A stretch of 42,294 nt of DNA from a virus, in the IMG/VR virus record IMGVR_UViG_3300019888_000009, positions 1 through 42,294 of that record. One strand, given 5' to 3'. Shown one piece after another: positions 165-40,670 of the stretch (within the stretch, counting starts at the first letter, position 1; every line of letters begins with the position of its first letter). Position numbers and translations under genes: made by a program. The notes beneath the pieces are model-generated. The model had not been told where the DNA came from. It searched no databases and was given only the letters and a program-made list of their open reading frames with translations.

Positions 165-455
165 CTACAGATGGGCTCGGCGAGTCAGCTCGCGGGCGAT
201 GACGACGAGCAGCCGGGCCTGGGCGTCGGTCGGGCTCTGCTGGGGCAGGTCCCAGGTGAGGCGCGCCAGCTCGTCCAAGACGTCGGTGAAGCGGGCCTCC
301 GCGGCGGGGTCAAGGATCCGAATCTCGAACGGCGTACCGAACACCGGCGGCGGGACCGAGCCCAGGCTGCGCAGCACCGGATGGCTGGCAGGGCGATGGG
401 CGCCGTCGCTGTGACCACCGATCAGCGCGCGGCTGCGGATCACGGGCTGGCTCAC
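165..455 (-). CDS. Hypothetical early protein, 96 aa
   Basis: The GTG start at 455 overlaps the stop of the SbcC gene by four bases (GTGA), which supports coupled translation. No motif is recognised. The sequence has a Pro-rich middle and a helical C-terminal half ending in an Arg-rich stretch (ARELTRRAHL). It is probably a small accessory of the SbcCD block because of its position; this is inference only. Confidence 0.7.
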   Translation of the reverse strand: MSQPVIRSRALIGGHSDGAHRPASHPVLRSLGSVPPPVFGTPFEIRILDPAAEARFTDVLDELARLTWDLPQQSPTDAQARLLVVIARELTRRAHL

Positions 456-2590: not shown

Positions 2591-2709
2591 GAGCAGGCTC
2601 GCCGGTGGACGAACCAGGTGCCGTGCTCGTCGGTGACTACGATCAGCTCGGTGTCGTCGGCCAAGGCATGGCAGCGATGGCACTCGTGGCGAAGCTCGAC
2701 GTCGCTCAT
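2587..2709 (-). CDS. 40-aa CxxC mini-protein between sbcC and sbcD
   Basis: A 40-residue frame (MSDVELRHECHRCHALADD...) that fits exactly between the two nuclease genes. Its ATG overlaps the SbcD stop (GATGAG) and its TGA overlaps the SbcC ATG. It has one CxxC with flanking His residues (HECHRCH), which is half a zinc ribbon. The double overlap is strong evidence that it is translated. Function unknown; a structural zinc-binding partner of SbcCD is only a guess. Confidence 0.65.
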   Translation of the reverse strand: MSDVELRHECHRCHALADDTELIVVTDEHGTWFVHRRACS

Positions 2710-3851
2710 CCCGCGGCCTCGAGCAGCTCACGGCCGCGGCTGATCAATGCCTCCGCATCCGGGTCGTCTGCGAAGTAGGCAGCCAGCGCCTGTTCCGCAG
2801 AAAGCGCCTCAGACAGGCCGCCGGCAAGCGCCGGGGCCTCGACGGGGCGGACCTGGATGGCGGCGACCTCGAAGGCGCCCATGTTCTCGACCTGCTGGCG
2901 CAGCTGCGCCACGTCCATCGAGGGATCCACGTCGACGATGCGGACAATGGCTCCCTCGACGTCGTCCTCGGAGACTCCCTCGGCCGCGTAGTCGCCCTGC
3001 AGCGTCACGTACCGCCGCGCCGGCGTCTCGACGAACTCCCACTCGAACCGCCCGGGCCCGACGTCGGCGACGATGAAGCCCTTGGCCTCGTGCTCCTCGC
3101 CGAAGTCGACGCGCTCGATGGAGCCTGGGTACAGGACCGGCGGATCGGTCGAGAGCACCTGGTGCCGATGCAGATGGCCGGCGACGATGCCCTCGAAGCC
3201 GATCGCGGCCAGGTCGGCGGCGTTGACCACCAGCTGCTGGTCGCCCAGGAACGCCTGCTGGCTCTCACTCAGGAGCGCGCCGGCCAGAGTCTGGTGACAG
3301 ACCAGGACCGCCGCGGTCGCGTGGCTCTCCTGCGCCTCCGCGTACAGGCCGCGGGCGATCGCCATGAACTGTTCGGCGAGCACCGCGAAGAGCTGCGCCT
3401 CGGGGACGTCCTCGAAGCCGGGCTGGGCCCTGAGCCAGTGGCGGTCGAGGTATGGGATCAGACAGACGGCGACGTCGTCGACGTACACCTTGCGCGGCCT
3501 CGTGACCGCCCAGCGCCCGCGGCCTGTACGCGGAGGCTCTTCGCCGAGGACGGTGACGATCGAGCCGCCGGCGATCTCGCCGTCGTGGTTCCCGCGCAGG
3601 TAGATCTGCGGATCGGCGAACGCCTCCAGGGAGTCGCGGATCTGGGAGACCAGCCAGGGCGCCGGATGGCGACGCTCGGTGAAGTCGCCGGCGATCACCA
3701 GCGCGTCGCACTCTCGATCGGTGGCCTGCGTGGCGACGATGTGCAGCGTGTCCAGGTAGTCCACGAGCCGCGCGTTGAGCCCGGTGGCCGGATCCACCTT
3801 CGAGCCGTAGGCGTCGATATGCAGGTCGGCGGCGAATGCGATGCGGGTCAT
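2706..3851 (-). CDS. sbcD: SbcD/Mre11-like nuclease subunit
   Basis: Calcineurin-like metallophosphoesterase of 381 residues, the nuclease partner of the SbcC-like ATPase. The metal-binding motifs appear in order: ADLHI (Asp9, His11), GDF (Asp56), GNHD (88-90), a CHQ motif near residue 186 and GHLH near 221. A roughly 120-residue C-terminal capping region ends in a Glu/Arg-rich tail. The start ATG overlaps the stop of the upstream zinc-ribbon gene (ATGA). The length fits the SbcD family. It acts on double-strand ends in the cytoplasm and probably serves phage recombination or replication with the annealing protein upstream. Confidence 0.95.
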   Translation of the reverse strand: MTRIAFAADLHIDAYGSKVDPATGLNARLVDYLDTLHIVATQATDRECDALVIAGDFTERRHPAPWLVSQIRDSLEAFADPQIYLRGNHDGEIAGGSIVTVLGEEPPRTGRGRWAVTRPRKVYVDDVAVCLIPYLDRHWLRAQPGFEDVPEAQLFAVLAEQFMAIARGLYAEAQESHATAAVLVCHQTLAGALLSESQQAFLGDQQLVVNAADLAAIGFEGIVAGHLHRHQVLSTDPPVLYPGSIERVDFGEEHEAKGFIVADVGPGRFEWEFVETPARRYVTLQGDYAAEGVSEDDVEGAIVRIVDVDPSMDVAQLRQQVENMGAFEVAAIQVRPVEAPALAGGLSEALSAEQALAAYFADDPDAEALISRGRELLEAAG

Positions 3852-6856: not shown

Positions 6857-6885
6857 ACTATGACATGCGTACAGCGCGGTGTCAA
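6857..6885 (-). promoter_or_regulatory. Consensus sigma70-type promoter for repressor
   Basis: On the minus strand, TTGACA (6880-6885) and CATAGT (6857-6862) are separated by 17 bases. The -10 element ends nine bases before ATG 6847, which puts the expected transcript start within about three bases of the start codon. Confidence 0.75.
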
Positions 6886-7858
6886 GCAAATTGTCACAAA
6901 GGTGACGCGAGCACGTAGAGTCCGCGTCACCTATGACGCTGCGCGCCTCGGACTGGCTCAAACAGAAGCGGATCGCCGCCGGCATCGCTGCCGCGGCTCA
7001 CCCCTGCTGGGGTCCGCCTTTGTCGCCATCATCGTGCTGCTGGCGCTGCTGCTCCTGATGCGCATTGGGCAGGCGTTCACCAACTGGGACGGGGCCGACT
7101 TCGAGGTCTATCGACGCGCGGCTGCATCCTGGGTCTCGAGCGGGAATCCCTACGCCTACGCCGGAGATTCAGGGCTGGCGACCTACCGCTATGCGCCGTG
7201 GTTCGCTGCGCTGTGGATCCCGTTCGGCGGCGTGCCCCGCGAGCCGCTGCTCATCGGTTGGGTCATCGTTCTGCTGGGGATGACCGCGGCGATCATGGTC
7301 AGCCTGGTCCGACAGCATGGCCCGGTTGCCATTCCGCTGGCCCTGCTAGGTGGATGTCTGCTGGTCAGCACCACCGCCGGCGGCAACATCCAGGCCCTGC
7401 TGGTCGGCGCGCTCTACTTCGGGATCCACCGTCGGTCCGGACCATTCTGGGTGGGCGTGGCCGCCTCGATCAAGATCTTCCCGATCCTGTACGTGATCCC
7501 GTGGCTGCGGCAGGGTGAATGGCGCAAGGCGGCCATGGCGGTCGGCGTAATGGCTGCCCTGTATGCACCGCTGCTGTTGTTCAGGCTGCCGCCGGCGGCG
7601 CTGGACCCAGGCGCCGAGTACTGGCCGTCGACCTGGCTGTGGGCCGGCGTGGCGGTCGCAGCGGTTGTGGCCGCCGTAGTCGTTGCGAGGACGCGCTATG
7701 CGTGGCTGGCTGCTGGCGCGGCGACCATCCTGACCATCCCTCGCCTGCTGGCGGTGGACTATTCGATGATCCTGCCAGCCGTCGGCCCATCAGCTGATCG
7801 TGTTGGCTCGGATCGAGTACTTGTCGGTCGTCACGTTGAGCGTGTAGACGGTGCCTGA
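6860..7858 (+). CDS. GT-C (GT87/DUF2029-like) mannosyltransferase, probably decayed
   Basis: The only clear plus-strand gene. It encodes a multi-pass membrane protein resembling polyprenyl-phosphate-dependent GT87 sugar transferases: a helix at about 54-69, a loop [14 protein letters not shown] (75-88) with the acidic residue expected for GT-C catalysis, GNPY and YAPW motifs, [15 protein letters not shown], and a [14 protein letters not shown] block. The start is uncertain. A frame one base off begins [21 protein letters not shown] at 6933 and looks like the true N-terminus, so a one-base change near 6996-7010 may have split the gene. The last 22 residues are antisense to the tail-fibre gene and the usual C-terminal helices are missing, so the gene is probably truncated. 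Confidence 0.7.
6893..6931. promoter_or_regulatory. Inverted-repeat operators in divergent region
   Basis: GTCAC-AAAG-GTGAC (6893-6906) is a 5-bp palindrome. It overlaps a second inverted repeat, GGTGACGCG (6901-6909) and CGCGTCACC (6923-6931), with a 13-base spacer containing TAGAGT, a possible plus-strand -10. The three GGTGAC-type half-sites lie between the repressor promoter and the plus-strand gene, as expected for repressor operators. Confidence 0.65.
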
Positions 7859-8638
7859 GGTGTCCGGACCGTCTGTGACGAACGCGTTGCCGCCAGCATC
7901 CCAGAAGACGTCGGTCCCGCTGCCGTCCTTGTAGAGATTGCAGACATTGCCCTGAACCGCTGTCTTGATCCCGATCCAGTAGTCACCAGCGGGGAGGTAG
8001 ATTCCGATCGGCGTGGCCAGCCAGCGAGCATCGCCCGCCGTCCCCGATACCCGATAGGGATTGATTGTGTTCGCCGGACTCACGTAGGCCATCAGCAGCT
8101 TCGGCTTGCCACCGCTGTCGGTCCACACAGCCGCCTCCGGCCGCCATGCGTTCGCCGCGGTGTTCTGCTTGACGTAGGCCTCGACGGTTAGCAGCTGACA
8201 CGCTGTGGCGATGGTGATCTTCTTGGCGTAGATGCGTTCGTTGGTGGCTGCGAAGGACGTCCCGCCGATCGTGTTGTATCCGACGTAGGCCTGGGTCACT
8301 CCGCCGCCGCCTCCTCCGGTGGCGCCGGTCGCACCAGTGGGTCCCGTCGCACCCGTGGCGCCGGCCGTCCCTGTCGCCCCGGTGGCTCCTGTTCCGCCTG
8401 TTGCCCCGGTCGCGCCGTTGGTCCCATTCGTCCCTGTTCCGCCCGTGGCACCGGTGGCCCCAGTCGCTCCGGTGGCACCGGCTGCGCCGGCGAGAGCGTG
8501 GAAGGCGCCGCCCGAGTCCTTGTAGTACGGCGCGCCGCTGTGGTCGGAGTCCATGAACAGCGTCGTCTGCCCGCTGGACGGGGTCGAGATGTCGGCCTCG
8601 GCCGCCTGGCGCATCTTGATCTGGGAGCCCTCGGGCAT
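7790..8638 (-). CDS. Collagen-like tail tip / receptor-binding protein
   Basis: A 282-residue protein. The N-terminal 50 residues ([29 protein letters not shown]) resemble adaptor regions of phage fibres. Residues 51-112 form about twenty Gly-X-Y triplets (GAT, GPT, GTN), a collagen-like trimer shaft. A C-terminal beta-rich domain of about 170 residues would be the tip. The ATG overlaps the glycosyltransferase stop (TGATG). As the last late gene it is most likely the host-range protein. Confidence 0.85.
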
Positions 8639-24943: not shown

Positions 24944-27097
24944 CTACTCCTCTCGCACCGTGACGCGCCGCGTGCGGCCGGGCTCCACGAGCTCGACGGT
25001 GCGGGTGCGCGGCCCGGGCTGTGCCATCTCGACGGTGATCGCCACCGGGGTCGGCGGGCCCTCGGGAGCGGCGACATTGACGATCGGCGCCGGCGCGGGC
25101 GGCACGTCGACGTGGATGACCGCCGGCGGCTGCTTGGGCACGTTGACGGTCACCTGCGGCGCGGGCATGGCGGCGGCGATCTTGGCCAGATCCGGCATCA
25201 GCTCAGCGCTCCGGGAGGCCCAGCCGGCGTACCACATCGCGCCCCTGCTCAGCGAAGAAGGCCGCGAAGAGCCGGCGAAGTCGAGCCTCAACCTCGCGTC
25301 GGCTGCGAGGGCGCCGAAAGGGCCGGCGGATGCACCGGCCTTCTCCAGCCGGAAGATGTCACGCACCCGCTCGGGTTCCGTGGCGCCGGTCAGCGCGATG
25401 CGCACCCGCTGGGCTCGTGCGGGGCTGATGGCCTCGCTCTCGAATGCGACGCCGGCGTTCTTGCCGAGGCGTAGCGCCTTCAGGCTCTTGCGCTGCCAGC
25501 GGTCCAAGTCCTCATCAATCGAGACCTTGGCGATCGGCTGGCCGGGGTTCGGGTTGGGCTGCTGGTTGGTCAGCTCGTCAGGGGCCGCCGAGGGCGTGGC
25601 CGGCTCCGGGCCGCCTGGCTCGGGTGGGGGAGCGGCGGCCTCGGCCAGCAGGGTGCTCACCAGGACCGGGCCCTGGGCGGTGGACACGTAGGCGCCCAGG
25701 CCGATCGGATCCTCGTCGTCGCGCTCGCGGAGCTCGTCGACGCTGATCTTGCCCATGCGCACGTAGAGGTCGTCGCTGGTCGCCTTCTGGACGGTGTCCT
25801 CTTCCTCCTCGAGGCCGTCGAGCAGGAACTCCAGCTCGGGCTGGTTCAGGTCGTCGGCGATGACCCGGTCGAGGATGCCCTTGATGTGCATCGCCATCGG
25901 CGCGGTGTCGTTGCGGTAGCTGGCGCTGACCTGGGTGTCGGCCACGCCCTTGCCGCCCAGGCCGCCAGAGTGCTGGGGCATGATCCCGAGGTCGGTCATG
26001 GCGTTCACGCCGAAGGCCGCGCAGGTGATGTGCAGCAGCCAGTCCTCGACCTCGCTCTTGGGCTCGGCCTGCCAGGGCTCGAGGCCGGTGTTGGCGCCGC
26101 CGGGCACGAAGCGGATCCGGGCGCGCTCGATGTCGTTGCCGGACAGGATCTCGTCGAAGACCTTCTGCAGCTCCTGGATCTGGCCGGTCGTCCAGTTCTC
26201 GGGCACCTTGTAGAAGCCGACCGGCATGGTGCCCTCGGAGAACTTCGACAGGTCGAGCGTCTGACGGCGCAGGGCCCGGTTGACGGCCAGCACCACCCAC
26301 ATCACCGGCGGGAAGCCGTAGGGGCTCCGGGTGCGCTGCCAGTACGGCGCGTAGACCATCTGGTCCGCGGTGTACATCTGCCAGGTGATGCCCTTGATCA
26401 CCTGGCCGAAGGCAGGCTCCGGCGGGATTGGCTGTCGGCCGTAGGCGTCGATGATCGGGCGAATGGTGGCGCCGTCGATGACGTCCAGGCCGTACAGGCC
26501 GCCGTCGCGCCGCGGCCGCTTGAACAGGGTGCCGGCGTCGATGCTGATGATGTCGTCGAGCCACTGCGTCAGCCAGGCGCCGAAGTCGTCCTCGGAGTTG
26601 GGGGTCTCGAAGAAGCCGGTGACGTCCTGGATCTGCGACTCGAGCGACGTCGCCCGCGCCTTGGCCTCCGGCCGGCTCATGCCGGCGACCGCCTTAGGCT
26701 GGATGTGCCAGCCGAGGCCGCGGAACTCGCTCTTGCGCTTCTCGATGCACAGCCGGGCGACGTCGTAGTTGTCGCACAGCGCCCGGAGCATCGCGAAGCT
26801 GATCGGCTCGTAGGAGCGCGGGGTGACGGTGATGTTGAAGCCGGGCTGGTAGTCCCAGCGCCGCGGCTCCGGCTCGTCGGGATGCGCCGGCGACATCGGG
26901 ATCCCGGGGCCCATGTCGGTGGTGGACTGCGACCCGGAGCCCAGCTGGCGGGCGAGCTCGCTCAGGCCGCGGGTTGAGACTGCCTGCGAGGCCAGGCTGG
27001 CCTTGGCCAGGCCCAGCTCCTCGCGCAGCCGAGCTGCCGTGGACGCGTCGCCTCTCACAGCAGCTGCGCGGTAACGGGCCCAGGCCTCGGTGCTCAT
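24944..27097 (-). CDS. Portal protein
   Basis: A 717-residue protein immediately after the terminase. ITVTPRSYEPISFAMLRALCD, CIEKRKSEF, DAGTLFKRP, QMYTADQMVYAPYWQRT and the long helical segment around 280-400 match the portal family. Residues from about 490 are Pro/Ala/Glu-rich and unlike the core, ending in VEPGRTRRVTVREE. The length is above the usual portal because of this tail. The start overlaps the terminase stop by four bases. Confidence 0.95.
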   Translation of the reverse strand: MSTEAWARYRAAAVRGDASTAARLREELGLAKASLASQAVSTRGLSELARQLGSGSQSTTDMGPGIPMSPAHPDEPEPRRWDYQPGFNITVTPRSYEPISFAMLRALCDNYDVARLCIEKRKSEFRGLGWHIQPKAVAGMSRPEAKARATSLESQIQDVTGFFETPNSEDDFGAWLTQWLDDIISIDAGTLFKRPRRDGGLYGLDVIDGATIRPIIDAYGRQPIPPEPAFGQVIKGITWQMYTADQMVYAPYWQRTRSPYGFPPVMWVVLAVNRALRRQTLDLSKFSEGTMPVGFYKVPENWTTGQIQELQKVFDEILSGNDIERARIRFVPGGANTGLEPWQAEPKSEVEDWLLHITCAAFGVNAMTDLGIMPQHSGGLGGKGVADTQVSASYRNDTAPMAMHIKGILDRVIADDLNQPELEFLLDGLEEEEDTVQKATSDDLYVRMGKISVDELRERDDEDPIGLGAYVSTAQGPVLVSTLLAEAAAPPPEPGGPEPATPSAAPDELTNQQPNPNPGQPIAKVSIDEDLDRWQRKSLKALRLGKNAGVAFESEAISPARAQRVRIALTGATEPERVRDIFRLEKAGASAGPFGALAADARLRLDFAGSSRPSSLSRGAMWYAGWASRSAELMPDLAKIAAAMPAPQVTVNVPKQPPAVIHVDVPPAPAPIVNVAAPEGPPTPVAITVEMAQPGPRTRTVELVEPGRTRRVTVREE

Positions 27098-28419
27098 GAG
27101 GCCTGGGCCTGCGTGGCTCGGCGCGCCTCTATCTGAGCGCGGTAGAAGCCCAGGATCCCCATCTCTGACCCGAGACCCATGACCGCGTAGCGCCAGGCGT
27201 CCATGGCGTCGTCGGCTTCCTTGACCGGCTGCTCGCGGGTCTGGCCGGTGCTGCGGTCGCGCGACCAGGCGTAGGACGGCAGCTCATCGAGCAGACCGGT
27301 ACAGCGAGGGCTGACCGTCATGCCGCCGGCGATCGCCTCCTTGACCGCGCCGATGCCGGGCATCACATCATTGGTGGCCGGCACGATCTGCACGCCCTTG
27401 GTCTTGCAGGCGGCGATGTACTCGGGCTCCGACGGGTCGGCGTAGAAGGTCTCGATGTGGTAGCGCTCCTGGAGCTTGAGCAGCTGCGGGACGAGGTCCT
27501 CGATCAGCTGGCCACGGGCGTAGACCTCATCGATGGTCGCCCGCCGGCCGGTGCCTGACTCGGCGACCACCTCGCAGGCGAAGGCGTGCACAAAGCCCCA
27601 GTCCACGCCGGCCACCACGCGCTTCCAGGTCGTCTGCTCGGGCTCGCGCACCTGGTCATCGGGCAGGAGGTAGATCTGGCCCTCGTAGGCCACCCACTCG
27701 CCCAGGTAGTAGCGCTGGTGGTAGACGTCGTCGGTGTCGCTTGAGCGCGCCTGGTCGACGTAGTCCGCCGGCAGCGCGGGGTTGTCGAAGGTCGAGGCGT
27801 GCAGGTAGACCCGGTCGTTGGTGGGCGGCGTGAAGCGGCGCTTGAGCCAGTGCTTGGGGCCAGCGGGGTTGGTCGCGGCCGCCAGCTGGTGGTACGGGAT
27901 CCCCGGCCACGAGAGGCGGCCCTTGACGAAGGCCCAGTCCGCCTCGCTGAGCTCGTAGGCCTCGTCGATGAACGCCCAGCCGAGCTCGACCGAGCCGACC
28001 TTGGAGGGAGCGCCGGTGATCGGGTTGGGCTCGAGGCCAAAGAAGCGAATGATCGAGCCGTTGGCTAGGTCGTAGCGGCGCAGGGTGTCGTTGCGCCGCA
28101 CGATGGCCTCGGGCGGGATGACGTCGTGGAACAGTGTGAAGCGCGTCGAGGCCTCGAGGTCGGCAGCCACCTTGCGGAAGATGCCGATCGGGATCCCCGG
28201 ATAGCGCTTCGCCAGCGAGTAGGCCTTCTCGCAGCCGATGCGGCTCTTGCCGGCGCGGAAGGCGCCCGAGTACAGCACCTCGGGCGCCTTCGAGTCGAAA
28301 AAGGTCCGCTGCTGCTCGTTGATGAAGGTCGGTTCCCGATCCGCCTCGATCCGCGCCCGATGCCCAGCGCGGATCCGTTGGGCGAGCAGGGTCTCGAAGC
28401 TCTGGGCGGCCATGGCCAT
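27094..28419 (-). CDS. Terminase large subunit
   Basis: A 441-residue DNA-packaging motor. Walker A SGAFRAGKS (51-59), Walker B AFIDEAYE (149-156), an ATP-coupling AATNPAG (181-187), and RNaseH-like nuclease acidic residues in VAGVDWG (Asp273), FYADPSE (Asp328) and EADDAMDAW (403-407) are all visible. I chose ATG 28419, one base over the small-subunit stop (TGATG). The longer frame to 28935 is an antisense shadow. Confidence 0.97.
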   Translation of the reverse strand: MAMAAQSFETLLAQRIRAGHRARIEADREPTFINEQQRTFFDSKAPEVLYSGAFRAGKSRIGCEKAYSLAKRYPGIPIGIFRKVAADLEASTRFTLFHDVIPPEAIVRRNDTLRRYDLANGSIIRFFGLEPNPITGAPSKVGSVELGWAFIDEAYELSEADWAFVKGRLSWPGIPYHQLAAATNPAGPKHWLKRRFTPPTNDRVYLHASTFDNPALPADYVDQARSSDTDDVYHQRYYLGEWVAYEGQIYLLPDDQVREPEQTTWKRVVAGVDWGFVHAFACEVVAESGTGRRATIDEVYARGQLIEDLVPQLLKLQERYHIETFYADPSEPEYIAACKTKGVQIVPATNDVMPGIGAVKEAIAGGMTVSPRCTGLLDELPSYAWSRDRSTGQTREQPVKEADDAMDAWRYAVMGLGSEMGILGFYRAQIEARRATQAQAS

Positions 28420-29093
28420 CAGTTGAGCTCCGCCCCGACCGGTGGTGCTGGGTCCAGGATGTTCGCGGCGGCTGACTCGGCCTGCTTCCGCGTCTCGGGA
28501 TCCAGGCCGGCCGCGTCGAGCGCTGCCTGCAGGGCACGGAACGCGAGCTCGACCTGGAACTCGGCGAGCTCGGTCATCCGCACGTCGATGCCCGCGTCGA
28601 CGGCCATCTTGGCGATCTCGGCGCGGCGCTTGAGCGCCCGGTCGTGCATGGCCGACACGACGCTCTCGCGCTCGTCGCCGAGGTGGTCCTCGACGGTCAG
28701 GCTGGCCTGCGTGCGCAGCAGCCCGCGCAGCCCCGCCTCGCGCCAGGAGGCGACGCGCAGCGCCTCGAGCAGCGCCGCGATGGGATCCTCGGACTCGGGG
28801 ATGTTCAGCTTGGTCAGGGCGTTCTCGGCAGCCTGGCGGGCCGCCTGGCGCTTGCCGGTCGGGGCGCGGCCGCCGTGCAGCCAGCAGTGGCCGAAGCCCG
28901 AATGGTCGGTGCGATGGCCGCGGTACTGCTTGCACGGCAGGCCGGTGCGCCGGCTCTTCACGCCGCAGTGGATCTTCGGGTCGAAGGGCACCGGCAGGCC
29001 TTCTTTGGTCAGCCGCTGGCCCAGGTGCGGCGATGCCGGGGAGGCAACTCGCTCCCCGGCGCTGGCCGCTTGCGCGGGCGTTCGGACTGTCAC
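28419..29093 (-). CDS. Terminase small subunit-like protein with zinc finger
   Basis: A 224-residue protein directly upstream of the large subunit. An N-terminal finger CGVKSRRTGLPCKQ ... GHCWLHGGRAPTG (about 43-80) has the Cys/His pattern seen in phage small terminases and related proteins of high-GC hosts. A long Ala/Arg/Glu helical region follows. GTG 29093 has GGAG six bases upstream. It would bind the packaging site and load the large subunit. Confidence 0.8.
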   Translation of the reverse strand: MTVRTPAQAASAGERVASPASPHLGQRLTKEGLPVPFDPKIHCGVKSRRTGLPCKQYRGHRTDHSGFGHCWLHGGRAPTGKRQAARQAAENALTKLNIPESEDPIAALLEALRVASWREAGLRGLLRTQASLTVEDHLGDERESVVSAMHDRALKRRAEIAKMAVDAGIDVRMTELAEFQVELAFRALQAALDAAGLDPETRKQAESAAANILDPAPPVGAELN

Positions 29094-30033: not shown

Positions 30034-30774
30034 CTATGCGTTGCGGACGGTGAACGGGCCAGACTTGCCGGCGACCAGGTACAGGCCGGCGAATGGCCCC
30101 TCGTGGACGAGGTAGTAGCCGGCGTAGCCCTGCGACACCGGGATCGGCGTGCCGGAGCGGGTGAAGGTCACGGTCTTGGAGCCGATGAGCGTCCTGGTGC
30201 CGCGCAGGACGTGGAAGGCGGTGACGGTGCCCGGACCGACAGCTGCGACCAGCGATGGCGTCGGCGGGTCGGGGAACAGGACGTAGCGGTCCTGCAGCCC
30301 ATCGGCGAAGGCGCGGAGGTCGCCGATGACAGCGGTGGTGTCGCCCCAGGCCAACGGATCGCCAACGATGACCGGCGTGCTCAGCGGACCGATCGCGGCC
30401 TGGATCGCGGCCCAACCCTGACCGCGGCTGTCGGCGAGGCCGTAGCGCTTCTGGATCCCGGTGGCCAGCTGCGCCTCGTTGGCGCCGACGTCCTGGGTGC
30501 CCATTGCGTTCTGCAGGGCCTCGCGCTCGGTGTAGGTGCACGGCGCCTTGCGGCCGCGGGTCTGGTAGTTGACGCCGCGGACGCCAGAAGCGGGGACGCA
30601 GTCGGCGACGACGCCGGGCTCATGGTCGAACTCGCTGAGGAAGCCCGGCACGAACGCCACCGAGCGGCGCTGAACGTAGATGCAGTGCCCGCCGGCGAAG
30701 CCCGGCTGATTGCCGTGGTCGCGGATGGCCGCAGGAAGCCTCGGATAGAGCCCGAACAGGGCGACGGCGCTCAT
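30034..30774 (-). CDS. GGHC-containing protein, possible cysteine peptidase
   Basis: A 246-residue protein with PGFAGGHCIYVQ (His30) and VADCVPASG (Cys59). The Cys region with TEREALQNAMGTQD and TGIQKRYG resembles C39-like peptidases, but the His-containing strand lies before the Cys, opposite to the usual order. It may be a circularly permuted or inactive relative of the papain-like gene upstream, which it overlaps by ATGA. The C-terminal 80 residues form a beta region that could bind cell wall. Confidence 0.65.
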   Translation of the reverse strand: MSAVALFGLYPRLPAAIRDHGNQPGFAGGHCIYVQRRSVAFVPGFLSEFDHEPGVVADCVPASGVRGVNYQTRGRKAPCTYTEREALQNAMGTQDVGANEAQLATGIQKRYGLADSRGQGWAAIQAAIGPLSTPVIVGDPLAWGDTTAVIGDLRAFADGLQDRYVLFPDPPTPSLVAAVGPGTVTAFHVLRGTRTLIGSKTVTFTRSGTPIPVSQGYAGYYLVHEGPFAGLYLVAGKSGPFTVRNA

Positions 30775-31589
30775 GCCGCCACCTCAGCCGCCAGCAGGAA
30801 GTCGCCCGACGCCGAGAGCAGCTTGTCAAGGTCCGCGTCGCGGATTAGGAAGTCGCCCGAGTCGTTGATGCCCCAGGCGCCCCACGAGTTGCGGCCAAGC
30901 GAGGCATTCTGGCTGCCGCGGTCCTGACGAAGAATCACGCAGTGGCCGCCAGCTACGCCTCCGGTGAGGTTGACGAACCCTGCGGCGTCGGTGCCTTCCA
31001 TGCCGTAGTACCAGTCGACGCCGATGACGACTGGGCCGTGGTTGTGCAGCCACTCGCTGACTTCAGCGATGGAGTTGGCGAAGGCGTAGGCGCTGATCTT
31101 GCCGCGCTTCTGAAGGACCTTGGCCAGCGAGCGCACCGTCGCGCCGTTCTGATAGGTCGAGTCGCAAGCCCCGTCCTCGCAGGTCGTGTCGTAGTAGAGC
31201 TGCCGGGCATAAGACTCGTTGAGTCCCTTGTCCTCGACCGGCGCGCAGGCCAGCCAGCCGGTCCCGCCATTCCCCACGCACGTCCCGAACTGTCCCTGAT
31301 CGAGGAGCAGCAGGTCTTCCCACAGCGGCCCGTCAACGTTCGTCGGGGTCGGGCTCGGAGGAGTCGGAACGAGGTGCTTTTTTATCCAGCGCCACAGGGC
31401 CAGGATCCCCGCCCAGGTCGTGAAGAAAGGGTTGTCCTCGGCGATCGCCTCCCGCACGGTCTTGTCGAGCAGCGAGTCGTCGGGCGGAGGGAGTGGCGTC
31501 TTGTGGTCGACGCCCAGCTTCTGGTGGAGCTTGTCGGCTGACCAGTCGCGGTCGTCGGGCGGGTTGGGGATGCGGCCGTAACTAGGCAC
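30771..31589 (-). CDS. Papain-like (C1A) cysteine peptidase
   Basis: A 272-residue protein with the C1A triad: DQGQFGTC (Gln98 and Cys104, six apart as in papain), GGHCVIL (His216) and NSWG (Asn234). The N-terminal region (RIPNPPDDRDWSAD, then a hydrophobic segment near 56-70) could be a pro-region or membrane anchor. GTG 31589 has AAGGAG seven bases upstream. It lies beside the holin-like gene; it may replace a classical endolysin or process a virion protein. Which substrate it cuts cannot be told here. Confidence 0.85.
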   Translation of the reverse strand: MPSYGRIPNPPDDRDWSADKLHQKLGVDHKTPLPPPDDSLLDKTVREAIAEDNPFFTTWAGILALWRWIKKHLVPTPPSPTPTNVDGPLWEDLLLLDQGQFGTCVGNGGTGWLACAPVEDKGLNESYARQLYYDTTCEDGACDSTYQNGATVRSLAKVLQKRGKISAYAFANSIAEVSEWLHNHGPVVIGVDWYYGMEGTDAAGFVNLTGGVAGGHCVILRQDRGSQNASLGRNSWGAWGINDSGDFLIRDADLDKLLSASGDFLLAAEVAA

Positions 31590-31710
31590 TCGGGTTCTCC
31601 TTCACGAACTTGTGAGTGATGTAGCCCGGCCGCGTGCGTGAGTGATGGTTGCGAGGCTTGCCGCACACCGCGCAGTCCAGCCGCTTCGGTTCGAGCTTGA
31701 GGTCAACCAT
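31582..31710 (-). CDS. Small zinc protein, 42 aa
   Basis: MVDLKLEPKRLDCAVCGKPRNHH begins with a CxxC and a following HH, a compact zinc knuckle, then an Arg/Lys-rich tail. Its stop overlaps the GTG of the papain-like gene by eight bases, and its end carries that gene's ribosome binding site. Translation coupling is likely. Confidence 0.6.
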   Translation of the reverse strand: MVDLKLEPKRLDCAVCGKPRNHHSRTRPGYITHKFVKENPSA

Positions 31711-32056
31711 CGGCCACCGCCTGACCGGCAGCCAGCATCGCGGTGCCGAAGTCGCTGCCATCAGGGAGAGCGATGCTGCCGTCGAATCGGCCCCCGTACT
31801 TGTCCCAGCCGTGGCTCAGGACCGTGACGTGCGTTCCGGGCGGACATAGCTGCTCGGCGTACAGCAGCGCGGCCTTACCAGCGTCGGTGCTCAACTCTGG
31901 GGCGTTGATGCCGTAGATCCGGCAGGACAGGATCGGGTGCCCATCGAGGTCGTGGCCGTACTCGAAGGTGGCGAAGCCGAGGTCGATGTTCAGGTGGCAG
32001 GTGTCGCCGTCGTGCCAGTCGGTGACAACTGCGGGATACGGGCCGTAGACGGTCAT
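31703..32056 (-). CDS. SNase-like (thermonuclease) protein
   Basis: A 117-residue protein with the staphylococcal-nuclease pattern: DWHDGDT (Asp16/Asp18), RIYGINAPE (Arg46, Glu54) and GGRFDG (Arg90). The residue in the place of the calcium-binding Asp40 is Asn51, so activity may be weak or altered. ATG 32056 overlaps the upstream zinc-protein stop (ATGA). It might degrade host DNA or process phage DNA. Confidence 0.8.
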   Translation of the reverse strand: MTVYGPYPAVVTDWHDGDTCHLNIDLGFATFEYGHDLDGHPILSCRIYGINAPELSTDAGKAALLYAEQLCPPGTHVTVLSHGWDKYGGRFDGSIALPDGSDFGTAMLAAGQAVADG

Positions 32057-32256
32057 CGCTCCACCCGACGCACGGCGTCCTCGATCTTGTGTATGCGGTC
32101 GTCCATACGTCTCACCAGGACCCTCCGCTCGCCGGGGTCGTAGGCGTGGAAGCCCACCTCTGGCGCCCAGTCGTGCAGCTCCGAGACATCGCCGCCGGCA
32201 CCGTGCAGCGTGTCGCCCTGCGGTCGTCGGCAGATGAGGCACAGCCGCGGGTCCAT
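32053..32256 (-). CDS. Small zinc-ribbon protein, 67 aa
   Basis: MDPRLCLICRRPQG has a CxxC, with later His residues (TLHG, ELHDW) that could complete a metal site. The C-terminal 25 residues form a charged helix (RRMDDRIHKIEDAVRRVER). It overlaps the nuclease start and follows the Flp-pilin-like gene by four bases. Function unknown. Confidence 0.75.
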   Translation of the reverse strand: MDPRLCLICRRPQGDTLHGAGGDVSELHDWAPEVGFHAYDPGERRVLVRRMDDRIHKIEDAVRRVER

Positions 32257-32260
32257 CGGG

Positions 32261-32401
32261 TCATCGAGAGGTCTGGATCGTCTGACCGATGTTGTTGAAC
32301 AGTCCCGACACGACGGGCCCCAGGAACAGCAGAGCGACGATGACCACGACCGCGATGAGCGCGATGAGCAGGCCGTACTCCACGAGCGTCTGCCCTCTCA
32401 T
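32261..32401 (-). CDS. Flp-type (Tad) pilin-like protein
   Basis: A 46-residue protein, the size of Flp pilins, made of a short leader (MRG), then QTLVEYGLLIALIAVVVIVALLFLG. The prepilin site G/QTLVEY has Glu at +5 and Tyr at +6 of the mature chain, as in Flp pilins. One membrane helix fills residues 10-30. ATG overlaps the upstream 34-residue membrane gene. No Tad ATPase or peptidase is in the window, so it would need host machinery. A surface decoy or exclusion role is speculative. Confidence 0.8.
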   Translation of the reverse strand: MRGQTLVEYGLLIALIAVVVIVALLFLGPVVSGLFNNIGQTIQTSR

Positions 32402-32502
32402 AGCGATCCCAGCACGCGGCCTATCAGCCCGATGTAGGTCAGCGCCACGAAGGCGATGACGAACACCCAGCCGGCGAACCACAGCGGGCTCCAGTCGTCC
32501 AT
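32398..32502 (-). CDS. Single-helix membrane mini-protein, 34 aa
   Basis: MDDWSPLWFAGWVFVIAFVAL carries one hydrophobic segment of about 20 residues and ends in VLGSL. It overlaps the Flp-like gene by four bases. Very small, but the ATGA overlap and the pilin neighbour support translation. Function unknown. Confidence 0.55.
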   Translation of the reverse strand: MDDWSPLWFAGWVFVIAFVALTYIGLIGRVLGSL

Positions 32503-32652
32503 TCATCGGGTCTCCTTCGGCTTGTGCGGTACGTCATGGATCGGGTCGCTCCGGCGGGCGCCGCAGCGGTTGCTGCCGGAGCCATATCCGCAGGCATCCT
32601 TCGAACCCTTGCGGGACGGGACGAAGGCGTGCTTCTCATGGAACCCGCTCAC
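32503..32652 (-). CDS. Small Cys/His protein, 49 aa
   Basis: GTG 32652 gives MSGFHEKHAFVPSRKGSKDAC with CGY...NRCG and DPIHDVPH, a small Cys/His pattern. Similar short basic proteins are found in actinophages. The GTG overlaps the upstream stop (GTGA), and its stop is followed at once by the 34-residue membrane gene. Confidence 0.6.
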   Translation of the reverse strand: MSGFHEKHAFVPSRKGSKDACGYGSGSNRCGARRSDPIHDVPHKPKETR

Positions 32653-32873
32653 CCGATCCGCCTCTGCATCTGCTTGAAGGCGTCGTTGGTCTCGTAGCAG
32701 ATGTCTAGGGCGCGCTGCTTCATGGCGAGCTCGCGCTGGAGCTGCTGATTGCGCTTCGACTCGCGCGGGTAGTTCGACTGCGCGTGTCGCCACAGCTCGA
32801 TCACCTTCAGCAGCCCCGTCACCCCCGCCGTCAGGGTGGCCAGCGCGCCGATCACGCCCGCTACGTCGCTCAT
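32649..32873 (-). CDS. Membrane-anchored coiled-coil protein, 74 aa
   Basis: An N-terminal helix VAGVIGALATLTAGVTGLLKVIELW (residues 4-28) is followed by a basic, Gln/Arg-rich coiled coil. The layout resembles small holins or inner-membrane spanin-like proteins. It overlaps the TadE-like stop (ATGA). Function not assigned. Confidence 0.7.
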   Translation of the reverse strand: MSDVAGVIGALATLTAGVTGLLKVIELWRHAQSNYPRESKRNQQLQRELAMKQRALDICYETNDAFKQMQRRIG

Positions 32874-33220
32874 GGGAGCGCCGCTCGCTCATCGACCGCG
32901 ATCCGCCAGACACCGGGACCGAGCGGAACCAGAAGAGGGAGGTCCACGGCTGCGGTGACCTCGATCGAGGAGCCGGCTGTACAGGAATCGTTGTCGGGTA
33001 CCCGGCCGTAGTCCGAAGCCAGGACAGCCAGCGCGGTATCGCAGCGCGTGAGCGGGTCGATGTCGCGGGCGCCGGCATCGGCGCCGTCGATGGCAGCGTG
33101 GACGAGCTCATAGCGCACCATCAGGGCGAGACCGACCTGCAAGCCGCCGAGCATCAGCATCAGAAAGATGGGCAGGATCAGGGCGAACTCGACGAGCGCC
33201 TGCCCCCAGCTGCGAGCCAT
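32870..33220 (-). CDS. TadE-like pseudopilin
   Basis: A 116-residue protein: MARSWG then QALVEFALILPIFLMLMLGG, a prepilin site with Glu +5 and Phe +6 and a membrane helix, then a region of about 90 residues including SIEVTAAVDLPLLVP, the TadE pattern. The N-terminus closely matches the Flp-like protein 0.5 kb away (GQ-LVE). Minor pseudopilins initiate Tad pilus assembly. Its presence in a phage late region is unusual. Confidence 0.8.
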   Translation of the reverse strand: MARSWGQALVEFALILPIFLMLMLGGLQVGLALMVRYELVHAAIDGADAGARDIDPLTRCDTALAVLASDYGRVPDNDSCTAGSSIEVTAAVDLPLLVPLGPGVWRIAVDERAALP

Positions 33221-33502
33221 TCACTTCGCACTCGGTGCTTCGGTGAGCTCGTCGATGGCGGTGGCCATGGCCACCACCAGCTTGCGGATGGAGACGATCT
33301 GGTCGCGCAGCCGGTCGACCAGCGGCTTGAGCCCTTCGGCCTCCAGGCGGGCGACCACGCCCTCGAGCTGGTCGACCTCGGTGAGCAGCGCGGCCCGGCG
33401 GACCTCGAGCTCGTCGATGTGGACGCGGTAGCCCTCGGAGGTGGCACGGGAGTCGTCGAGCTCCGACTGGAGCTGGTCTTTCTCGGACTTGTCGGCGCTC
33501 AT
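33221..33502 (-). CDS. Coiled-coil protein, 93 aa
   Basis: Almost entirely heptad-like (EKDQLQSELDDSRATSEG, then LTEVDQLEGVVARLEAEGLK). ATG 33502. The stop directly precedes the TadE-like ATG (TGAATG). It may be a scaffold-type or regulator protein; no family is recognised. Confidence 0.75.
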   Translation of the reverse strand: MSADKSEKDQLQSELDDSRATSEGYRVHIDELEVRRAALLTEVDQLEGVVARLEAEGLKPLVDRLRDQIVSIRKLVVAMATAIDELTEAPSAK

Positions 33503-33512
33503 GCGCCGGGCT

Positions 33513-33540
33513 GTATGACGCCGCCTAGCAGATTGCGCAA
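33513..33540 (-). promoter_or_regulatory. Possible weak promoter
   Basis: TTGCGC (33535-33540) and TCATAC (33513-33518) on the minus strand, 16 bases apart, precede ATG 33502 in a 54-base gap. The match is poor, but this is one of few non-coding gaps in the operon, so a late promoter is possible. Confidence 0.3.
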
Positions 33541-33556
33541 GCCCGTTTCCGCGCGA

Positions 33557-33772
33557 TCAGGCCGTTTTCGTGCTCAAACGCGGCTCTGAAGTTCCCAAAG
33601 AATTCGGCAGCTCTGTCTCACGCAGGCAGCGCTCACAGAGGTGCATGCTGCCCACAGCACGGCCCTCACTGACGAGCTCGAAGCGGTGCACGGCGATCCC
33701 CGCCCTGTTGCCCCGGGCGATCAGGCAGCGCCAGCAGCGCACCTGGCGGTTAGGCGGTCGCCCCCGCGGCAT
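33557..33772 (-). CDS. Zinc-ribbon protein, 71 aa
   Basis: A CxxC pair near residue 13 (RCWRCL) and another near 45-48 (LCERCL) give a complete four-Cys zinc ribbon, with a basic N-terminus MPRGRPPNRQ. It starts two bases after the endonuclease VII stop. Similar ribbons bind nucleic acids or subunits of nucleases. Confidence 0.75.
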   Translation of the reverse strand: MPRGRPPNRQVRCWRCLIARGNRAGIAVHRFELVSEGRAVGSMHLCERCLRETELPNSLGTSEPRLSTKTA

Positions 33773-33774
33773 GC

Positions 33775-34371
33775 TCAGCCGAGCGCCTCGACGAGCCACG
33801 GTGCTCGGGTGATCTCGAGGTAGGTCGCGAGCTTACGGGCCAGTTCGGGATCGTCCCGGAGTGAGCCGAGCGCACGATTGCAACGACGGCACAGCAGGCC
33901 TCGGACCCTACCTGTGCGATGGTCGTGGTCGACGTCGAGCAGGCGTTTCTCGGTTGGTGGCGCGGCACATGCTGCGCAGACGCCGCCTTGGGCGCGGAGG
34001 AGCTCGTCGTACTGCTCGATGGTGATCCCGTAGCTCTGCAGGGCCCGAGCTCTGCGGGAGCGCGCCCGGCCCGGAGCCGCGACGTCCACTTCGTAGCAGT
34101 CGATGCATCGAGAGGGATCCCGCCGCGACTTGCGTCGCTCTGGATGGCAGGTCGGTCGTGGGTGCCGATGAAGGGCGACCTGCCGCTCGTAGCATTCCGC
34201 GCACAGCCCTCGGCCTCGATGACGTCGGTCAGGATGACACTCGGGCGGCAGGCCCCGGAAGCGCAGCTGGCGCGGAATCCGGGCATCGCGGCGGTCCCGC
34301 TTGTAGCAGCTTTCGCATTGACCTCGCGCCTTGTTCGGCCGGCTAGGATGACAGAGGGACGGCGTCTTCAT
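33775..34371 (-). CDS. Endonuclease VII-like (HNH) with three zinc repeats
   Basis: A 198-residue protein. The C-terminal 85 residues have the T4 endonuclease VII pattern: YGITIEQYDELLRAQGG, VCAAC (Cys132/135), DVDHDHRTG (148-154) and LLCRRCN (161/164). The N-terminal 95 residues carry three tandem zinc repeats CHPSRPNKARGQCESCY, CHPDRRHRGRGLCAECY and CHPERRKSRRDPSRCIDCY. The stop overlaps nothing, but the start overlaps the recombinase stop (ATGA). It probably resolves branched phage DNA; the repeats may bind DNA. Confidence 0.85.
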   Translation of the reverse strand: MKTPSLCHPSRPNKARGQCESCYKRDRRDARIPRQLRFRGLPPECHPDRRHRGRGLCAECYERQVALHRHPRPTCHPERRKSRRDPSRCIDCYEVDVAAPGRARSRRARALQSYGITIEQYDELLRAQGGVCAACAAPPTEKRLLDVDHDHRTGRVRGLLCRRCNRALGSLRDDPELARKLATYLEITRAPWLVEALG

Positions 34372-35678
34372 GCGAGCTCCGCCAGGGTGAGTGGGGTTCC
34401 GTTCATGGAAACCGAAACTTTGACTCCTTTCGCCCCGACATCAACCACCGCCTGAGCACCAGAGCGGAAGTTCCAGGTCGTCCGCCGCGCGCCGAGCGCC
34501 TCGACGCTGCTGAACAGCTCGATCGCCAGGCGTCGGCGATCGAGGTCGTCGGCGTCGCGGTCCGCCCACATCGCCGGGACGTCGCGGAGCAGCTGCAGGG
34601 CCTCGGACCAGTCGGGAGCGCTCACATCGTGAGCAGCTTTGGCAGCAGCCTCGCGCTCGTCGAGCCGGGCCATGTCGGCCTCCAGGCGGGCGGGATCCCG
34701 GTGCTCGCGGTAGCGGGCTAGGACGCGATCGCGATCGGCCTCTAGGCGGCGCAGCGCCAGCTCGTCGACCATCGGCGCCGGCGCCTGCCACAGCTCGGCC
34801 GCTCTGCTCAGGTCGACCGCGTCGAGCGACAGCGCCACCTTGCGCAGCACCAGCGGCACGAGGTCCTCGTAGACGCTGCGCCGGTAGCTGTGGCCTGGCA
34901 CACGGTGCAGGCGGTTGCGGTACGCCGAGCGCGGCCGCGCCGCGGTGAAGGCGGCACACGGGTCGAGGTGGCGGTAGCGCCCAGAGTCGCCGACCAGACC
35001 GCGGCCGCAGGCGGCGCAGGCCAGCATCGGCAGCAGGTAGGTCCGGTTCACGGCCGGTCGGCCGCCGCGGCTGTTCCGCTCGGAACGCAGCTGCTGGACG
35101 CGGTTCCAGGTGGCGACGTCGACGAGGGGCTCGACTGACGCCGGGCTGCCATCCCTGAGCCGGCCGACGTAGATCGGGTTGGTCAGGATCCCGCGGACGG
35201 TGTGGATCGGTAGGGCAAGGTCACGCGCAACGTCACGGTCACCATCACCCCGTGCAGCTCGCTCGAAACAGCTCCGCACCTGCACCGATGCTGGCCCAGG
35301 AGCGAGTCGGGGCGGTCGTCCAGTCCGCACGAATCCATGTGGCGGACGGCCTCCTGGCTCACCAAGGCGACGGCGCTTGGCGGCATAGCCCTCTCGGATT
35401 CGCTTGCTGAGTCGGTGGCTGTAGCTCTCGGACTCGACGATCTCACGTGCCCAGGCCTCCCATGCATCGGGGTCGCTGCTCAGGATCCGCTCGTCGGCGA
35501 AGAGCAGCGTGGCGCCGGCAGCATGGAAGGCTCTTCTGGCGTCGACGTGTGCCTCGAGCGAGCGGGCGAAGCGGCTGGCGTAGCCGACGACCAGGACGTC
35601 GAAGTCGCGTAGACGGGTAGAACTGTGCCCGGTAGTGGCCGCGAACGATCCAGCGCTGCTTCCAGCGCGGCCCTTCAC
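34368..35678 (-). pseudogene. Large serine recombinase lacking its N-terminus
   Basis: A 436-residue frame. From DFDVLVVGYASRFARS onward it looks like the later catalytic helices of a large serine recombinase, then RIREGYAAKRRRLG, PHGF, ILTNPIYVGRL, a zinc region ACAACGRGLVGDSGRYRHLDP, and a coiled coil. The N-terminal 60 or so residues holding the catalytic YxRxS serine are missing. The nominal first 25 residues are the wrong frame of the neighbouring gene. The gene can hardly catalyse integration. Homology begins at about 35606, next to the end of the plasmid-type gene. Confidence 0.75.
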
Positions 35679-39471: not shown

Positions 39472-40266
39472 TCACTCACTACGAAGCCCCCCCCCGGCGT
39501 TGTCGACCGGCTTCGGCTTCCAGGGGTTCTCAGGTGGCCGCCGCTTGGTGGTGTCGTGCTCGCGCAGCACGGGCACCGGCGCTGGTTCGTCGTGGCCGGT
39601 CAGCTTCAGGTGGGCCCGCAGCTCCTCGCGGCTCTTGCCCCGGAACGAGCAGCCAGGGCGGCACATCCACTCCTCGCGGGCGTGGATGTTCACCGGCGGC
39701 GGGATGGTGCCCGGCACGATCGGCGTGGGCCGCCATGGCTCGGTGGTGGAGCGGAGGGGAGGGGTCGAACCCCCATCTGCTGGCTGGTCGGCCAGCCGCT
39801 CTGCTGGTTGAGCTACCTCCGCCTGGCGGTGGGCGGCCTTGCGATGCAGGCCGAGGCCACCCGGCATCGGGAATACGCGATCGCAGTCCGGGCACGGGTA
39901 CGGGCCCTTCGCGCGCTGAGTGGCCGCGGAGCCAGCCTTGCCGCGGCGGCCAGGCGACGGCGGAGCAGGAGTGCCCTCGGGCCGTGACAACCCGCCCTCC
40001 TCCGCCTGCGACACCGGGGCAGGGAGCGGTGCCACCGCTCCGTCGCTCGCGGGCTGGAGATCGGCACCCAGCGTCGCTCTCGACTCGGCCAGCCCCGGCT
40101 GATCTGATGGCTCGTGCTCCTCGGCTGCCGCCCAGCTGACGTCCAGCGCCGCGACCGCAGCCGATGCGATGCCAGCCAGCGTGTCCACGTCGTAGCGGCG
40201 ATCGCGCATGTGGACGGTGATCGAGCCGTCGTCGAAGAGCTCGAAGGTGGCCAGCAGCTCGGTCAT
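39472..40266 (-). CDS. C2H2 zinc-finger protein with embedded tRNA-like segment
   Basis: A 264-residue frame from ATG 40266. It has two Cys2His2 fingers: YPCPDCDRVFPMPGGLGLHRKAAH (residues 123-146, C-x2-C-x12-H-x4-H) and MCRPGCSFRGKSREELRAHLKLTGH (201-225, C-x3-C-x12-H-x5-H). Between them, residues 149-173 are encoded by a tRNA-like sequence, read in frame without a stop. The N-terminus (residues 1-30) and linkers are Pro/Ala-rich. Either one gene gained the insert or two short genes were joined. C2H2 fingers of this type are uncommon in phages. Confidence 0.65.
   Translation of the reverse strand: MTELLATFELFDDGSITVHMRDRRYDVDTLAGIASAAVAALDVSWAAAEEHEPSDQPGLAESRATLGADLQPASDGAVAPLPAPVSQAEEGGLSRPEGTPAPPSPGRRGKAGSAATQRAKGPYPCPDCDRVFPMPGGLGLHRKAAHRQAEVAQPAERLADQPADGGSTPPLRSTTEPWRPTPIVPGTIPPPVNIHAREEWMCRPGCSFRGKSREELRAHLKLTGHDEPAPVPVLREHDTTKRRPPENPWKPKPVDNAGGGLRSE
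39747..39822 (-). tRNA. tRNA-like sequence, anticodon uncertain
   Basis: A 76-base cloverleaf: acceptor GCGGAGG/CCTCCGC perfect, D-stem GCTC/GAGC, T-arm GGGGG TTCGACC CCTCC (one G-T pair), discriminator T and encoded CCA. The anticodon arm GCTGG/CCAGC closes over an eight-base loop CCGACCAG with no U33, so the anticodon cannot be assigned; GAC (Val) and ACC (Gly) are options. The loop and its in-gene position suggest a degenerate, unusual or decoy tRNA. Confidence 0.6.
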
Positions 40267-40670
40267 GTGGCCGGCTCCCAGGCACTGACCTGAACCGGGC
40301 GGTCGCCTTGGCCGATGACGAACCAGGCCTGCCAGTTTTCGACGTGAACACGGAACGGCGGCGTCGCTGAGAGGTATCGGACGATCGTGCGCGTCGAGAC
40401 GCCGTAGGCCCGCGCCAGATGCTCGATCCGCCACCCCTCGCGGCGGCGCTGGCGAAGCTCCTCGGTCTCGCTGGGATCGAGTGCACGGGTGTTGCCGAAG
40501 TTGGCGATTGAGCGGTGATCCACTCGTCGCAGATGAGCCTTGTGGCGCTTCACCTGCTCCTCGACCAGCCGGCGTAGGGTCGCTCGGCAGCCTGGTCCGC
40601 AGTACATCCGCGGCCGGCCACAACCTCGGAGTGCCGGCAAGTCCGAGCCGCAAGCGAGGCAGGTCCTCAC
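40263..40670 (-). CDS. Zinc-finger plus HTH DNA-binding protein
   Basis: A 135-residue protein. MRTCLACGSDLPALRG and RMYCGPGC give a four-Cys zinc ribbon (residues 4-30); a helix-turn-helix follows at about 82-100 (WRIEHLARAYGVSTRTIVRYL). GTG 40670 overlaps the upstream stop. Probably a DNA-binding regulator of early genes. Confidence 0.75.
   Translation of the reverse strand: MRTCLACGSDLPALRGCGRPRMYCGPGCRATLRRLVEEQVKRHKAHLRRVDHRSIANFGNTRALDPSETEELRQRRREGWRIEHLARAYGVSTRTIVRYLSATPPFRVHVENWQAWFVIGQGDRPVQVSAWEPAT

Follow-up and report, generated by a model that had tools for sequence, protein, structure and literature searches.

The Glu and Tyr of Caulobacter Tad pilins build the hydrogen-bond network of the fibre, as seen by cryo-EM, and are required for fibre assembly, not for expression or processing (PMC11067988). 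TadEFG have been proposed to be tip complexes that initiate the fibre, and in the Kil Tad pili of Myxococcus one major pilin works with different minor-pilin tip sets, whose genes lie at other places in the genome (PMC12075869). The tad locus of Pseudarthrobacter pACHL01 contains Flp, TadE, a TadG-related protein, RcpC/CpaB, an AAA ATPase, CpaF and two T2SS F proteins. The host pilus is also a common phage receptor, and the phage proteins D3112 gp05, DMS3 Aqs1 and the Pf4 capsid protein shut off type IV pili by inhibiting motor or platform proteins (PMC11436027). We found no account of phages that supply Tad-class pilin subunits (Flp or TadE) in the open-access literature.

We studied the linear IMG/VR record IMGVR_UViG_3300019888_000009 (42,294 bases, 70% GC), the whole of which is called the window here. 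Compared with the Flp/Fap pilins (PF04964; Caulobacter PilA, 8u2b, 8u1k), a 46-aa ORF in the window has the same G/Q-T-L-V-E-Y site, the same E5 and Y6, a single helix of ~43 residues and a collinear match of 41 residues. Unlike them, it is encoded by a phage without Tad machinery and is at most about 54–55% identical to the sampled bacterial Flps. A 116-aa ORF resembles the TadE/TadF pseudopilins (PF07811): it scores twice the cut-off and has the same prepilin site, with a predicted long helix and small beta head. Unlike TadE/TadF pseudopilins, it is phage-encoded, its head closely resembles no known sequence, it has two conserved Cys, and a relative is fused to a Cys/His-rich part.

As in the pACHL01 tad locus, Flp and TadE lie side by side in the phages. 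Unlike that locus, the phages keep the subunits only, with no CpaF-type ATPase, T2SSF or prepilin peptidase. The cassette shares with gp05, Aqs1 and Pf4 the use of phage genes against the host pilus, which we presume to be its target. Unlike these inhibitors, the proteins encoded by the window phage are Tad-class pilins. Interchangeable minor-pilin tips for Tad pili are the common point with the Kil system, which differs in that it serves bacterial predation, has machinery of its own and involves no phage.

Flp- and TadE-type genes in the window

Nearly all genes of the window are on the minus strand. The genes that define the locus are listed below, where G051, G054 and G055 are three other phage contigs with related pilins.

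24944..27097 (-): portal protein, marking the phage context (phrog_2662, E=4.1e-53)
27094..28428 (-): terminase large subunit, also marking the phage context (phrog_2, E=2.4e-38 with ORF 27094-28935, in which it lies)
30034..30774 (-): perhaps a second cysteine peptidase, judged C39-like only visually, start uncertain (Pfam and PHROGs gave no match)
30771..31589 (-): papain-like cysteine peptidase that may be an endolysin or a virion protease (phrog_16701 peptidase, E=3.8e-24)
32053..32256 (-): 67-aa Cys/His-rich protein downstream of Flp (60% identity to G054, 37.5% to G055)
32261..32401 (-): 46-aa prepilin like the Flp-type (type IVb/IVc) major pilins (PF04964, PDB match, relatives in three phages)
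32398..32502 (-): 34-aa membrane protein with a single helix, overlapping Flp by ATGA (no notable family match)
32503..32652 (-): 49-aa Cys/His-rich protein, GTG start (matches the leader part of G055 TadE at 55% identity across 38 aa)
32649..32873 (-): 74-aa protein with an N-terminal hydrophobic stretch and a coil, weakly spanin-like (only phrog_214, Rz-like spanin, E=0.012); -4 overlap with TadE
32870..33220 (-): 116-aa TadE-type minor pilin or pseudopilin (PF07811, AF2 model, relatives in three phages)
33221..33502 (-): 93-aa coiled-coil protein, whose gene opens the coupled block (65–69% identity in G051 and G054; gap of 0 to TadE)
34368..35678 (-): large serine recombinase (integrase; phrog_95, E=1.8e-28; PF07508 and PF00239 over cut-off)

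Judged from the large serine integrase, the window phage is probably temperate. PF10145 was found on a tail protein of the record. A tail-region protein at 7790-8638 (-) has a collagen-like Gly-X-Y repeat (PF01391 below cut-off), and a glycosyltransferase family 87 gene (6860-7858 (+), PF09594 over cut-off) is oriented against the annotated phage genes.

The 46-aa ORF starts with MRG/QTLVEYGLL. Cleavage is predicted after G3, leaving a mature chain of 43 aa in which positions +5 and +6 are E and Y. PF04964 matched it with 31.2 bits (E=1.8e-7), 1 bit short of the curated cut-off of 32.2, and with 29.5 bits in the whole-record search. Its homologues in G051 (33.1 bits) and G054 (32.2 bits) passed this cut-off. 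A single-sequence search of the PDB returned two matches only, the Caulobacter Tad pilins 8u2b and 8u1k (E ~1.5e-5); the alignment spans 41 residues and keeps T2, E5 and Y6 in register. The features of a Flp/Fap pilin are present: a prepilin site with Gly before the predicted cut, E5 and Y6, a single hydrophobic helix and no globular domain. On these sequence features, the ORF almost certainly belongs to the Flp family.

The 116-aa ORF starts with MARSWG/QALVEFALI, and the predicted cleavage after G6 places E at +5 and F at +6. PF07811 matched it with 48.7 bits (E=8e-13; cut-off 22.9), or 50.9 bits in the whole-record search, and it is a member of the TadE family. An AF2 model from a four-sequence alignment (pLDDT 85.1, pTM 0.68) has helices at 3-52 and 59-71 and strands at 77-82, 85-95 and 104-114. 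As modelled, this layout is that of a small type IV pilin, with a long helix and a beta-sheet head. Foldseek with this model found no match at E<=0.001 in the PDB or among viral models. C60 and C80 are invariant across the four phages.

The initial annotation had placed a Flp-like ORF with Glu +5/Tyr +6 at 32261-32401 (-) and a TadE-like ORF with Glu +5/Phe +6 at 32870-33220 (-), and the position, site and size of both are borne out. Of the two profiles it had named, PF07811 clearly matches TadE, whereas the PF04964 match to Flp lies just under its cut-off (31.2 vs 32.2). The three small genes that it saw between the pilins are exactly three, of 74, 49 and 34 aa.

From the coil gene (33502) through Flp, each junction is 0 or -4 bases, so these genes are one translationally coupled operon. 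Because of these abutting and overlapping junctions, the pilins form an integral part of a phage operon. The gap ahead of the coil gene is 54 bases, Flp is followed by the next gene at +4 bases, and the papain-like peptidase gene overlaps its next gene by 4. No sigma-70-like promoter was found in 31500-34500, a weak test at this GC content.

Related cassettes and Tad machinery in other viral contigs

We ran a degenerate DNA pattern for GQ(T/A)LVE(Y/F)(G/A) on 2.9 million viral contigs. Six records were returned, all six with a prepilin-like ORF. In G051 (15,974 b), G054 (62,308 b) and G055 (30,586 b), Flp is 76–78% identical to the window Flp over the alignment and is adjoined by a TadE over the PF07811 cut-off, which is 34–41% identical to the window TadE. 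Phage hallmarks are present in all three: terminase and portal in G054, tape measure in G051 and G055, and both terminase subunits in G055. Their GC is 46–68%, where 46% is that of a 20-kb stretch of G054. The cassette is thus carried by at least four phages, which are otherwise dissimilar and unrelated.

The 93-aa coil gene is common to G051 and G054, where the order is Flp-coil-TadE. As transcribed, these two contigs have tail-region genes, a TM/coil protein, a ~125-aa protein, Flp, coil, TadE, a candidate cysteine peptidase and membrane proteins. The peptidases were assigned by eye, with no Pfam or PHROG match. By eye, the TM/coil genes upstream of Flp are laid out like the 74-aa gene of the window. 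In G055, the order is a tyrosine-integrase-like ORF (by eye), Flp, a TadE fusion, a membrane protein, an M23-type peptidase and the small terminase; the counterpart of the 49-aa Cys/His-rich protein is fused to the TadE N-terminus.

To estimate selection, we used pairwise Nei-Gojobori calculations on the four phage Flps, whose local identity is 73–88%. With dS of 1.3–1.7 and dN of 0.10–0.21, dN/dS is 0.07–0.16, and Flp is under strong purifying selection in the four phages. The GC3 values of their Flp genes (0.87, 0.54, 0.65 and 0.92) broadly track the GC of each phage (46–70%). The low dN/dS together with this matching composition indicates long residence under selection. The coil protein has dN of 0.23–0.28 with saturated dS. 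TadE has local identities of 34–44% across the four phages, with most dS saturated and one finite dN/dS of 0.61 (window vs G055). Strong constraint is therefore found for Flp and the coil protein, and that on TadE was not quantified. The greater divergence of the TadE heads is as expected of variable tips.

A Flp match was present in 65 of 299 Pseudomonadota genomes. Compared with the ten best-scoring Flp genomes among these 299, the phage Flps are at most about 54% identical, although the host phylum may differ and a closer host Flp is possible; identity to a Pseudarthrobacter Flp is 55%. By sequence identity, the phage Flps resemble each other more than they resemble the sampled bacterial Flps.

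A looser pattern gave 26 stretches, and 15 contigs had a prepilin-like ORF by inspection. With two more contigs from the first pattern and the window, these make a set of 18 records, some of which are fragments; phage hallmarks were checked in G051, G054, G055, G061 and G063. At E<=0.01, TadE was found in 11 records and Flp in 12. Six have both: the window, G051, G054, G055, G059 and, weakly, G063. An additional TadG-like ORF is present in G059 and in G063. In G059, PF13400 exceeds its cut-off on the TadG-like ORF; in G063, it does so at a site that PF07811 also matches weakly. These two profiles overlap, and both match the same TadE ORF in G051, G054 and G055.

No record of the 18 had a TadA/CpaF-type ATPase (T2SSE, PF00437) over cut-off, the one sub-threshold match being of 10 bits in G058. 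Likewise, the TadB/TadC platform (T2SSF, PF00482) and the A24/TadV prepilin peptidase (PF01478) were found in 0/18. The same machinery profiles were positive in 12–14 of 14 control genomes. For the window, this agrees with the earlier reading of the sequence: T2SSE, T2SSF and Peptidase_A24 searches of the whole record found no Tad ATPase or prepilin peptidase. The secretin RcpA/CpaC is not expected in single-membrane hosts.

TadG-, TadE- and Flp-like ORFs lie close together at L123 5203-7218 (G063, a 60 kb phage contig) and at L116 1-5944 (G059). These clusters suggest that some phages carry larger sets of pilus subunits. In G059, a weak C39-like peptidase adjoins Flp.

Possible functions of the cassette

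Our preferred reading, to which we give a probability of roughly 0.4, is that the cassette provides fibre and tip subunits which a presumed host Tad machinery processes and assembles, and that pili are thereby remodelled late in infection or in lysogens. Flp and TadE would be made from one coupled operon adjoining the peptidase and terminase genes, and both would enter the cytoplasmic membrane. Because prepilin peptidases are described as promiscuous (PMC12075869), a host peptidase could cut both pilins, after G3 and G6. The host Tad ATPase and platform would then polymerise the phage pilins, with TadE, which has a variable head and two conserved Cys, presumably at the pilus tip. The product would be a pilus that is phage-type in whole or in part. 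Co-assembly with host pilins is not guaranteed, because the phage Flp differs from the sampled bacterial Flps.

The likeliest benefit would be a remodelled surface receptor or adhesin, so that sibling or rival Tad-dependent phages fail to adsorb, or that cell-cell contact changes. Should assembly take place, phages could redefine both the fibre and the tip of a surface organelle of the host, which would matter for receptor switching, superinfection exclusion and adhesion. As the machinery is absent from the phages, we predict that they depend on the prepilin peptidase and ATPase of the host. The four related cassettes are a directly testable set. We tentatively propose, at a little below even odds, that these loci are a class of cassette not described before, in which a conserved Flp-TadE pair, in some contigs with TadG-like proteins, is carried without machinery by tailed phages of very different GC, and the host Tad machine builds phage-specified pili during infection.

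The initial annotation had speculated that the pilins jam a host Tad pilus, act as decoys or block superinfection. A jam would mean that they compete for the prepilin peptidase or terminate the growing fibre, and the infected cell would lose its pili, a dominant-negative form of superinfection exclusion. This is unlikely in our view. A cassette without its own machinery and a Flp divergent from the sampled bacterial ones would both fit it, and phages do switch off type IV pili by other routes, namely PilB inhibition and a Pf4 protein acting on PilC (PMC11436027). However, a poison need not be assembly-competent, and here Glu5/Tyr6 and the full pilin helix are under purifying selection; a matched set of fibre and tip also exceeds the needs of a jam. 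A simple jam or decoy fits the data less well than assembly does: Glu5/Tyr6 are retained, fibre and tip subunits are supplied as a pair, and G059 and G063 add TadG-like proteins, a set that looks assembly-competent. A block to superinfection through pilus remodelling is compatible with the data.

A lysis module of pilin-like proteins, TM/coil proteins and peptidases is less likely again. For example, a host-driven pseudopilus might carry a lysin across the envelope, or the membrane proteins might aid release. The nearby genes would also suit such a role: confirmed or candidate peptidases and holin- or spanin-like small membrane genes are found near the pilins of the window, G051, G054 and G055 (M23 in G055), and G059 has its C39-like gene. 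However, several of the peptidase assignments and all of the holin assignments are weak. Phage accessory genes typically sit beside lysis or tail genes, and the position of the pilins is equally typical of these. We know of no lysis system that uses Tad pilins.

Lysogenic conversion, in which the phage pilins alter attachment or biofilm formation of the lysogen for the benefit of the host and have no part in infection, is improbable. The serine integrase of the window phage and the tyrosine-integrase-like ORF of G055 would allow it, but the pilin genes are coupled within a block that runs into peptidase and packaging genes, and no sigma-70-like promoter was seen in the region, which leaves separate expression in the lysogen unsupported. 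Least probable is that host pilin genes, which do belong to common bacterial families, were acquired by chance and are functionless now; the selection result disfavours this, as four dissimilar phages keep Flp with the identity and dN/dS given above and TadE adjacent.

Searches of known phages and minor observations

PHROGs had no family for either pilin (best E 0.03 and 0.083). The window TadE had no match among 50,697 phage records. With G051 TadE as query, 30 plasmid records were found, and most of those listed have an annotated TadE aligned over most of the length of the query; thus, TadE is detectable by such a search. In the phage records, the same query gave one borderline match, MT838758.1 (E=3e-3), and three chance-level matches. 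MT838758.1 (L146) is filed as Bacteriophage sp., but its other ORFs look bacterial chromosomal by eye and it is probably not a phage. Together, these TadE searches yielded no credible phage record among the 50,697. The tblastn search with Flp had no match in phages and none in plasmids either, though Tad loci occur there; it is uninformative, probably due to low-complexity filtering.

Close relatives of the window terminase, portal or TadE were not found among viral contigs. Relatives from the portal alignment were at most 39% identical, with TadE in 0/50 of the records searched and Flp in 0/44 of those searched. Among bacterial genome contigs, the coil protein gave three weak 38-residue matches in Alphaproteobacteria, which we treated as chance coiled-coil similarity; no host emerged from this search. 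L087 was rejected as a pilin: by eye, it is a chance match within a ThyX-like gene. Mature pilins are membrane- or filament-bound, and the idea that they are virion proteins was dropped, as we saw no support for it.

Other features were observed in the window and in the pilin-bearing contigs. An overlapping pair at 452-3851 (-) of the window encodes an SMC/SbcC-like ATPase and a calcineurin-like phosphoesterase, arranged as in SbcCD. ARAGORN called a tRNA at 39747-39822 (-), with its anticodon unresolved, inside the long ORF 39472-40653. In G051, a CAP-domain protein (L100 1005-1484, PF00188 over cut-off) is encoded downstream of the pilins and the peptidase. One short Flp-like ORF (MRRRGQSLVEYALLLAAVGLLVLGGAG...) occurs twice, at L117 2139 and L124 5409, in two viral contigs of 66% GC, with weak PF04964 matches. 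At L093 2463 (G056, a 79.9 kb contig), a Flp-like N-terminus is fused to a larger C-terminal domain in an open frame of 176 codons.
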